Positions 37,601 to 44,520 of a DNA stretch of 64,000 nt are shown one piece after another. Where the stretch lies: assembly GCF_900217905.1 (NCBI RefSeq), contig NZ_OBMO01000009.1, positions 1 to 64,000 on the forward strand, given 5' to 3'. The DNA is from Alloalcanivorax xenomutans (lineage in GTDB: Bacteria; Pseudomonadota; Gammaproteobacteria; Pseudomonadales; Alcanivoracaceae). The first letter of the stretch is position 1. Every line of letters starts with the position of its first letter. The position numbers were made by a program, and so were the translations under genes. The notes beneath the pieces are model-generated. The model ran no database searches. It was not told the DNA's origin and saw only the letters and a list, made by a program, of their open reading frames with translations.

Positions 37601-37627
37601 CTCTCTCCATTCGTGGTTAGCGAATGG
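37601..37627 (-). promoter_or_regulatory. Hairpin overlapping the ahcY ribosome-binding site (expression platform)
   Basis: On the minus strand CCATTCG (complement of 37621-37627) can pair with CGAATGG (complement of 37607-37613), a 7-bp stem with a 7-base loop. Its 3' arm takes the first two G of GGAGAGAG. Its 5' arm shares two bases with the riboswitch pseudoknot strand, so the two structures exclude each other. Confidence 0.55.
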
Positions 37628-37697
37628 GCGCCGTTGAAATGTCGCGCCGTTCCCCCGAGCCTCGCGGCCCTCGCCGCTGCAGCGCCCCTCGGGGGAG
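37624..37697 (-). ncRNA. SAH riboswitch in the ahcY leader
   Basis: On the minus strand, P1 is CCCCCGAG (37695-37688) pairing with CTCGGGGG (37659-37652). The conserved core GAGGGGCGCTGCAGCGG lies in the 5' half, followed by GAGGCTCGG at the P1 closing side and CAACGGCGCCC at the 3' end. GGGCGC near the 5' end can pair with GCGCCC (complement of 37626-37631), forming the H-type pseudoknot of this riboswitch class. It lies between metK and ahcY, exactly where SAH riboswitches are found in pseudomonads. Confidence 0.9.
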
Positions 37698-42918: not shown

Positions 42919-44520
42919 ATGATAGAAGGCATGTTGACCGGTTTGTCCGCGGCGTTGAGCTGGCAGGGCATCCTCTACGTAATGATGGGGTGCCTGGTGG
43001 GCACCTTTATTGGCATGTTGCCAGGGCTGGGGCCGATCACCGCCATCGCCCTGATGATTCCGGTGACCTACAGTATCGACCCTTCCTACGGCATGATCCT
43101 CATGGCCGGAGTGTACTACGGTGCGATTTTTGGCGGCTCCACCTCGTCGATTCTGATCAATGCGCCGGGGGTGGCCGGTACCGTGGCGACCTCTTTCGAT
43201 GGCTATCCCCTGGCGCGCAAAGGGCAGGCTGGCAAGGCGCTGGCGCTGGCCGCTTATGCCTCGTTTTCCGGCGGTACCCTGGCGGCGGTATTCCTGATGG
43301 TGGCGGCGCCGCTGCTGGCCAAGGTGTCGCTGAGCTTCTGGTCGGCGGATTATTTCGCGCTGATGGTCATGGGGCTCACCGCCATCGCCGCGTTCTCCAA
43401 TCGGGGGCAGTTTCTCAAGGCGGTGATGATGACCCTGCTTGGCATCATGCTCGCCACCGTTGGTATCGACCCGTCCTCCGGCGCCGAACGGTTCACCTTC
43501 GGCTCCAGCGATCTGCTCGACGGCATCAGCTTCCTGCTGGTGGCGATGTCGATCTTTGCCTTGTCCGAGGCACTCTCCGGCGTACTGCGCCCGGATCATA
43601 AAAAATTGCCGGGAGCAATTTTAAACGTTGCTTCAGCAACGGCCCGCAGGGTGGCCGCCAGGGACGGTGGCCATAAAAAAGCGCCGGCGCCGTCCTCGAA
43701 GATGGGCGATCTGCGCTTGAGCAGGGAAGAGGTCAAGGACGTGGTGCCGGTGATCGGCCGTTCCTCCATTCTTGGTTTTCTGATAGGCATTCTGCCCGGT
43801 GCCGGTGCCACCATTGCCAGCTTCCTGGCCTACGCCACCGAGCGCAATCTGGCCCGGGGCGAGAAGAAGAAACAGTTTGGGCAGGGTTCCCTGCGTGGTC
43901 TGGCGGCGCCGGAAACCGCCAACAACGCCGCGTGCACCGGCTCCTTCGTGCCGCTGCTGACCTTGGGTATTCCCGGTTCCGGCACCACGGCGGTAATGCT
44001 TGGCGCTTTGATTGCCTACGGACTGCAACCCGGTCCGTTGTTGATGCACGATAACCCGGATGTGTTCTGGGCGGTGATCATGTCCATGTATGTGGGCAAC
44101 GTGGTGCTGCTGTTCCTCAACCTGCCAATGATCCCGTACATCGCCAAGACGCTGGCGCTGCCGAAACCGCTACTGACCGTGCTGATCCTGTTCTTCAGCC
44201 TGATCGGTGTGTATCTGGTGTCGTTCAATACCTTCGATCTGTATCTGATGGTGGGCTTCGCGGTGTTGTCGCTGATATTGAGGCAGTTGAATTTCCCCAT
44301 GGCACCGTTGATTCTGGGCTTTATTCTCGGCGGCATGCTGGAGAGTAATTTCCGCCGGGCGATGATGATCGCCGACGGTTCCATCGCGTTCCTGTGGGAG
44401 CGGCCGCTGACCCTGTGCATCACGCTGGTGTCCCTGGCGCTGCTGCTGGTGCCGCTGATGGATTTCCTGCGCGGACTGAAACGGCCGGCGCCGGAGGCGG
44501 AGCTGTCCGATAACCTGTAA
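42919..44520 (+). CDS. tctA: Tripartite tricarboxylate transporter large membrane subunit TctA, carrying an in-frame 25-residue insert
   Basis: 533 residues and about twelve helices. The family motif GMLPGLGPITAIALMIP is near residue 33, GGSTSSILINAPGVAGTVAT follows, and the second half has GILPGAGATIASFLAY and LGIPGSGTTAVMLGAL. Most TctA proteins are about 500-510 residues. The excess is explained by residues 230-254, encoded by a 75-bp palindromic insert (43597-43680 with flanking repeats) in the loop before KMGDLRLSREE. Taking it out restores HKK-APAPSS and 508 residues. Expected to be still functional, since the loop is hydrophilic and the frame is kept. Confidence 0.92.
   Translation: MIEGMLTGLSAALSWQGILYVMMGCLVGTFIGMLPGLGPITAIALMIPVTYSIDPSYGMILMAGVYYGAIFGGSTSSILINAPGVAGTVATSFDGYPLARKGQAGKALALAAYASFSGGTLAAVFLMVAAPLLAKVSLSFWSADYFALMVMGLTAIAAFSNRGQFLKAVMMTLLGIMLATVGIDPSSGAERFTFGSSDLLDGISFLLVAMSIFALSEALSGVLRPDHKKLPGAILNVASATARRVAARDGGHKKAPAPSSKMGDLRLSREEVKDVVPVIGRSSILGFLIGILPGAGATIASFLAYATERNLARGEKKKQFGQGSLRGLAAPETANNAACTGSFVPLLTLGIPGSGTTAVMLGALIAYGLQPGPLLMHDNPDVFWAVIMSMYVGNVVLLFLNLPMIPYIAKTLALPKPLLTVLILFFSLIGVYLVSFNTFDLYLMVGFAVLSLILRQLNFPMAPLILGFILGGMLESNFRRAMMIADGSIAFLWERPLTLCITLVSLALLLVPLMDFLRGLKRPAPEAELSDNL
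43597..43680. mobile_element. In-frame palindromic insertion element in tctA
   Basis: The 9-bp direct repeat CATAAAAAA occurs at 43597-43605 and 43672-43680, 75 bp apart. The segment holds three stem-loops: AAAATTGC/GCAATTTT (43602-43609 with 43615-43622, loop 5), CGTTGCT/AGCAACG (43626-43632 with 43635-43641) and GGCCGCC/GGTGGCC (43653-43659 with 43666-43672, one G-T pair). Its low-GC start differs from the host gene. It has no reading frame of its own beyond the host frame. The structure resembles palindromic elements such as the Rickettsia RPE that insert in genes without breaking the frame, but it is not that sequence. Confidence 0.8.

Follow-up and report, generated by a model that had tools for sequence, protein, structure and literature searches.

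Closest described systems

Judged by sequence, two described entities appear to be the closest known relatives of the palindromic element considered here: RtT RNA (Rfam RF00391), which we take to be that of the E. coli tyrT operon, and the spacer that follows the 5S rRNA gene between two terminators in the rrn operons of E. coli and Salmonella, presumably the rrnB T1-T2 spacer. The rrn terminator spacer is carried in many cloning vectors.

Two further groups of repeats are relevant for their behaviour. Rickettsia palindromic elements (RPEs) are palindromic and are found both between genes and in frame within genes (PMC10969869, PMC2229807). They measure 105-150 bp and have terminal inverted repeats as well as long stem-loops; of the first-reported copies, nearly half lie in ORFs (PMC10969869). 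REPs measure 20-40 bp, most of them have a GTAG or CGTC tag, and they flank the gene in inverted orientation, RAYT genes being described as having two such inverted REPs around them (PMC2817692).

The insertion in tctA

The window is the whole 64,000-nucleotide stretch of DNA that was analysed, in which tctA is preceded by tctC and tctB and encodes a protein of 533 aa with a Pfam TctA assignment (Table 1). The 9-bp sequence CATAAAAAA occurs at 43597-43605 and again, at a spacing of 75 bp, at 43672-43680; this exact repeat had been reported in the initial annotation, as had the loss of 25 codons on removal of one repeat together with the insert, and both observations were borne out, an open frame of 508 codons remaining once the 75 bp are taken away. 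Alignment of TctA to its relatives, a check proposed in the same annotation, revealed that the extra in-frame 75 bp is absent from all three near-identical orthologues, namely those of G006, G007 and G008, the three closest relatives of the genome under study (G000), with which tctA shares 94-96% DNA identity over the gene and 99% protein identity. The 25 extra residues were likewise found in none of the 23 homologues compared in a scan of the genome-contig collection, which returned 25 loci, L186 and L187 being left out as matches over a short stretch only and two of the 23 being the records of G007 and G008. The empty sites read GATCAAAAAAAGG in G006, GACGGCAAAAAAGCG in G007 and GACGGCAAAAAGGCG in G008, and all three hold an A5-A7 run, the 9-bp repeat itself being absent there.

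When G000 is compared with G006, G007 and G008 over 494 codons, synonymous codon differences number 63, 51 and 64 and non-synonymous ones 2, 3 and 5, so that tctA is under purifying selection; the comparison concerns a single genome, in which the periods before and after the insertion are inseparable. A structure model of the protein is weak, with a mean pLDDT of 62.4 and low confidence at residues 224-263. The palindromic feature in tctA exceeds chance, because the unit recurs at 44 loci of the genome and three orthologues show the empty site; the earlier proposal of a small palindromic element inserted in frame is supported, and the insertion is a recent one.

Predicted structure of the element

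The copies show a fold of three main hairpins with compensating changes, and the hairpins covary strongly. In an alignment of 25 copies, 97.8% of the cells of the four-helix structure are paired compared with 90.4% in shuffles, percentages that are biased towards the structure by its having been drawn from the same 25 sequences. Double-changed pairs number 15 of 24 against 6.3 in the shuffles, a value reached by 0 of 500 shuffles, and shifting the partners by 1-3 columns lowers pairing below 50%. Over 69 distinct rows there are 57 G.U and 23 A.C cells, an excess of G.U that favours the top strand as the one that would be folded, with the reservation that these cells are non-independent and that one pair supplies 18 of the 57 G.U. 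As regards the three stems of 8, 7 and 7 bp listed in the initial annotation, the first (8 bp) and the third (7 bp with one G.T) stand, and the second is corrected to 6 bp.

Table 1. Features of the element and its surroundings in the window
Feature	Position	Strand	Remarks
tctA	42919..44520	+	533 codons; 25 extra codons in a variable-length linker between two predicted helices
Palindromic element, full-length copy	43600..43680	+	Model positions 1-81, 104 bits; insert plus target A-run
Host CAT codon making the repeat look 9 bp long	43597..43599	+	Orthologues have CAA (G006) or GGC (G007, G008)
Left A6 run (target A-run)	43600..43605	+	A5-A7 run at the empty sites of G006, G007 and G008
Stem-loop 1, 8 bp, loop CGGGA	43602..43622	+	Arms 43602-43609/43615-43622; 5' arm uses the flanking A-run; 6/8 pairs double-changed
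Stem-loop 2, 6 bp	43626..43641	+	Arms 43626-43631/43636-43641; both-side changes in 3/6 pairs
CCC/GGG mini-stem, 3 bp, in the conserved GGCCCGNAGGG box	43643..43651	+	Arms 43643-43645/43649-43651; 1/3 pairs double-changed, 2 invariant
Stem-loop 3, 7 bp, one G.T, loop ANGGAC	43653..43672	+	Arms 43653-43659/43666-43672; 5/7 pairs double-changed
Right end of the element, CATAAAAAA	43672..43680	+	Recurs among copies
SAH riboswitch	37619..37696	-	60 bits against a cut-off of 37

Copies in the genome, the genus and the class

The initial annotation had suggested a search for further copies. BLAST with 84 bases found 32 places in the own genome, and a covariance model trained on 25 copies, of which one came from Salmonella and one from E. 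coli, gave 64 matches there at E <= 1e-3 (the weakest at 30-34 bits), which collapse to 44 loci, several being tandem with a spacing of ~75 bp and up to five units. All 13 genus genomes contain matches at E <= 1e-5 when 150 candidates are scored per genome, with 77 in G008, 61 in G000, 42 in G007, 34 in G006, 12 in G001 and 1-6 in the others. At least 114 of 369 genomes of the class have a match at the same threshold, a lower bound obtained with stricter filters and 12 candidates scored per genome. These data show a dispersed family that is polymorphic between close species. In the plasmid and phage collections, the search returned matches of ~80% identity only (14 and 5 records, respectively); among three of these records that were opened, two had no annotated feature at the position and one match lay behind 5S rRNA, with no sign of a plasmid or phage carrier. 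The open-licence literature searched yielded no description of the family as a dispersed repeat. The family is widespread and barely described. In G008, a 92-bp REP/BIME-like repeat in a long tandem array adjoins the element (L082 1427-2308, coordinates from the reverse strand).

By a rough longest-ORF pick, 16 of the 44 loci are spanned by an ORF of at least 80 codons. Six G000 loci were read further for their position relative to genes, and three loci, tctA included, lie in coding sequence, which is a minimum for the 44; each copy adds 75 bp (25 codons) and keeps the frame, and the three are read differently. The tctA copy is sense to its gene, the C31:12581 copy is antisense in the gene of a MIMNNSD... 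protein (+75 bp relative to G006 and G007), and the C4:55358 copy is sense in another frame (+75 bp relative to G006, a copy being present in G007 and G008 as well). Tandem spacing is not always 75 bp, and selection for in-frame cases is therefore the simple reading of the kept frames. A sense 3'-UTR role finds no support, as gene orientation is unbiased at the 44 loci, where a crude longest-ORF caller placed the left and right genes as -/+ in 13, +/- in 12, +/+ in 8 and -/- in 8, 3 being unclear.

Target sites

Joined flanks of 18 of the 44 loci were searched against G006, G007 and G008, and the nine with matches were aligned. Six gave clean empty sites (C25:29452, C38:46820, C22:68083, C14:49756, C31:12581 and C4:55358), whereas C25:79443, C30:32839 and C7:84529 did not align cleanly, despite flank matches that ran unbroken in the joined-flank search. 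A run of 4-8 A's is present at tctA and at five of these six sites, from all of which the 9-bp repeat is absent; C4:55358 has no such run. At the right end of the element, CAYAA is found at 27 of 44 loci, compared with CAYAAA on the left at 9 of 44. The 9-bp repeat, which the initial annotation had taken for a target duplication made by transposition, is therefore not supported as a conventional duplication of this kind, as the target is an A-run rather than 9 bp and the left CAT is a codon position of the host. The element also departs from a classical DDE-type MITE, for no terminal inverted repeats and no duplication of constant length were seen: its ends are A-runs in direct order, and the flanks share the A-run only.

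At C14:49756, an intrinsic terminator, AAAAAGGCCGCCCC...GGGCGGCCTTTTT, provides the A-tract that forms the empty site of G006 and G007. A strict scan, whose definition was fixed to the junction and chosen after a looser T-run scan had been seen, asked for a GC-rich hairpin beginning no more than 2 bases from the element. Such a hairpin adjoins the right end at 15 of 44 loci and the left end at 2 of 44, compared with 1.4% for random positions and 4.1% for those that follow other A5+ runs. The signal from T-runs of the terminator type beyond the hairpin was weaker than that of the hairpin alone (7 of 44 downstream versus 1 upstream). The element thus enters a run of 4-8 A's at most resolved sites, and a third of the loci lie right before a GC-rich hairpin.

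A candidate mobilizing enzyme

The likeliest enzyme, although we hold the assignment at somewhat less than even confidence, may be a REP-type Y1 (IS200-like) transposase whose gene adjoins element copies in the four high-copy genomes. In G000, G006, G007 and G008, this gene lies ~0.1 kb behind one or two element copies of the same orientation; its product scores 26.1 bits with the Pfam model (cut-off 23) and 38.7 with the NCBIfam REP-associated transposase model, below the cut-off of 80. Across 389 genomes, Y1 proteins of more than 90% identity were found in these four only, which carry 34-77 copies, whereas the other nine genus genomes, with 1-12 copies, have Y1 homologues of at most 48% identity. 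Against such a role, the four genomes are close relatives sharing the same Y1 locus, so that the link counts as one evolutionary event; the copies stand on one side of the gene, unlike the two inverted REPs described for RAYT genes (PMC2817692); the HUH motif reads NQVH in place of NHVH in all four genomes and is degenerate; and an element match at E < 0.1 was absent from all 26 further Y1 loci that were examined.

Across L228-L231 and the homologues L232-L257, the Y1 transposases of the genus often have the first His of HUH replaced (NQVH, DRIH, NEVH), and Y1 loci of other families have NHVH or NHIH in 13 of 14 cases, one giving no motif. Behind the Y1 gene, all four genomes have CATAAAAAA standing alone, a sequence that resembles the right end of the element (L067 1482-1490, minus strand).

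Proposed mode of movement and competing explanations

A recent insertion into tctA of a non-autonomous, hairpin-rich repeat of ~75 bp is very probably the correct reading of the locus. The element entered the AAA AAA codon pair, and since this copy is an addition of exactly 75 bp that reads through without a stop, TctA gains 25 residues in a variable linker and its frame is left open. It would move in trans as a single top strand, stem 1 making use of the target A-run, and, ending in A6, may itself be a target, from which tandem arrays of ~75 bp would follow; within coding sequence it would be tolerated rather than useful. Several observations weigh against this reading. One-ended fragments exist, which precise cut-and-paste would not give; C4:55358 is a clean empty site without an A-run; the excess of G.U over A.C is subject to the non-independence mentioned above; and gene orientation around the copies is unbiased. 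Set beside an IS200/IS605-type non-autonomous element, the repeat has the hairpins, but its junctions within the A-run are not placeable to the base. An explanation without any mobile element, in which TctA simply varies by tandem repeats or indels or has been extended in one lineage, would accord with the differing linker length among distant TctA paralogues, but is refuted and keeps next to no probability, given that the inserted DNA matches 63 other places in its own genome and that, by the rough longest-ORF pick, 28 of the 44 loci are unspanned by an ORF of at least 80 codons.

The one-ended fragments bear on two other modes of movement. In G000, G006 and G007, right ends without the left motif number 15 of 41, 17 of 32 and 16 of 28 (48 in total), and left ends without the right motif 20 of 46, 11 of 26 and 18 of 30 (49 in total), a reversed control pattern giving only 1-2 matches per genome; at E <= 1 the model fails to match eight right-only loci, of which some could have arisen by chance. 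In a copying mode of movement with priming at the 3' A6, the element would pair, as RNA or as a single strand of DNA, through A6 with a T-rich 3' end and be copied 3' to 5', resembling a small bacterial poly-A retroposition. The A6 at the 3' end, the top-strand pairing bias and the location of relatives downstream of tRNA and 5S genes, presumably a transcribed position, would fit, as would right-end fragments with variable 5' loss, many of them by eye directly at terminators; a full-copy score above 60 bits persists in 1 of 30 right-only against 6 of 16 left-only cases. These cases (30 of the 48 and 16 of the 49) were hand-picked and uncontrolled, and 5' truncation, strong as evidence at first look, was rejected as such in view of the symmetrical raw counts; we regard this route as possible but rather unlikely. 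Hairpins can stall replication, and a process with no enzyme of its own, in which replication slippage or template switching between A-runs copies the unit and unequal exchange makes the tandem arrays, would account for the A-run on both sides, the arrays and both kinds of one-ended copies. Full-unit insertions are nevertheless frequent at distant loci, with seven clean empty sites among the ten aligned, tctA included, which suggests an efficient process, and slippage seems to us an improbable, if real, contender.

Relationship to known systems

The initial annotation had expected a new family in this clade, which proved too narrow a view, as at least 114 of 369 class genomes match and a relative is already present in Rfam as RtT. 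With RtT, the element has stem 1, stem 2 and the GGCCCGAAGGG box in common. Among 40 loci scanned, RtT was the sole Rfam family to exceed its cut-off on an element, in the class relative L105, which scores 60.3 bits with the element model and 46.9 with RtT (cut-off 45). The tctA copy itself gave a non-significant 13.9 bits with RF00391 in the scan of the window (E 4), far under the cut-off, and RtT was above cut-off in 0 of 13 genus genomes, a scan in which E. coli served as control. An RtT-like copy behind tRNA-Tyr in the own genome (G000:C2:109709-109823; L159 1497-1615, minus strand) scores 42.8 bits with RtT and 20.4 with the element model; it shares stems 1-2 and the box with the element, lacks stem 3 and ends in a repeat of the tRNA 3' end. 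RtT-type copies lie behind tRNA genes with a tRNA 3'-end repeat, whereas the tctA element is dispersed, A-flanked and situated in a coding gene.

Besides G000, 113 genomes of the class have a match, and from these the 29 best-scoring loci were read, each from a different genome. In nine of them (L093, L098, L104, L105, L106, L111, L112, L114 and L117), the left flank ends in GTTCG(A); in eight of these nine, the right flank starts with (A)ATCC like a tRNA T-arm, L112 having a second copy instead, and an intact tRNA (Gln, Ser, Tyr or Arg) lies upstream in eight, L114 being near a contig end. These nine relatives sit within the T-loop (GGTTCGA|ATCC) of an apparent partial tRNA copy, and in some of them the left arm seems able to pair with the 3' end of the tRNA.

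Element matches were also present in 3562 of 5426 E. coli genomes, with a median of 2 places per genome with any, and in three annotated enteric records that were opened they lie 84-92 bases behind 5S rRNA. One Salmonella stretch, read base by base, has its copy between two terminator-like hairpins, and behind the copy the 3' end of 5S is repeated. The rrn spacer shows ~80% identity over query positions 12-81, and its stems 1 and 3 are changed on both sides yet still pair; it differs in its post-5S position in the records opened and its median of 2 places per genome, and it is not known to be mobile. Common descent of the element, RtT and the rrn spacer is likely. It is a more speculative and, in our judgement, unlikely proposition that one ancient gammaproteobacterial mobile element has left fixed copies of itself in the rtT repeats of E. 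coli and in the rrn T1-T2 spacer and, in other places, would still be jumping into genes, tRNA T-loops (GGTTCGA|ATCC) and the A-tracts of terminators, its movement consisting in the copying of a structured single strand with priming at the 3' A6.

The family links three things so far separate, namely the poorly understood RtT tRNA-operon RNA, the rrn terminator spacer and a dispersed repeat favouring A-tracts before hairpins. It also shows that short palindromes can make proteins longer with the frame unbroken in organisms other than Rickettsia, here with empty sites in close relatives, and its movement can be tested through the copy numbers of sister species, which run from 1 to 77.

The likeness to Rickettsia palindromic elements drawn in the initial annotation holds in effect: the element is palindromic and stands in frame within three protein genes, each lengthened by 75 bp. 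It works like an RPE, of which it may be no more than an analogue, and differs in its length of ~75 bp and in having at least 3 of 44 loci in genes, as opposed to nearly half of the first-reported RPE copies. With the REP/BIME and RAYT systems, it shares a short hairpin repeat and a Y1 gene adjoining its copies; neither a GTAG nor a CGTC tag was seen at the ends of the element, which spans 81 positions flanked by A-runs, and its copies lie upstream of the Y1 gene only, in the same orientation, rather than as two inverted flanking copies. By sequence and predicted fold, the element groups with RtT and the rrn spacer, and appears as their dispersed variant with a target of its own.
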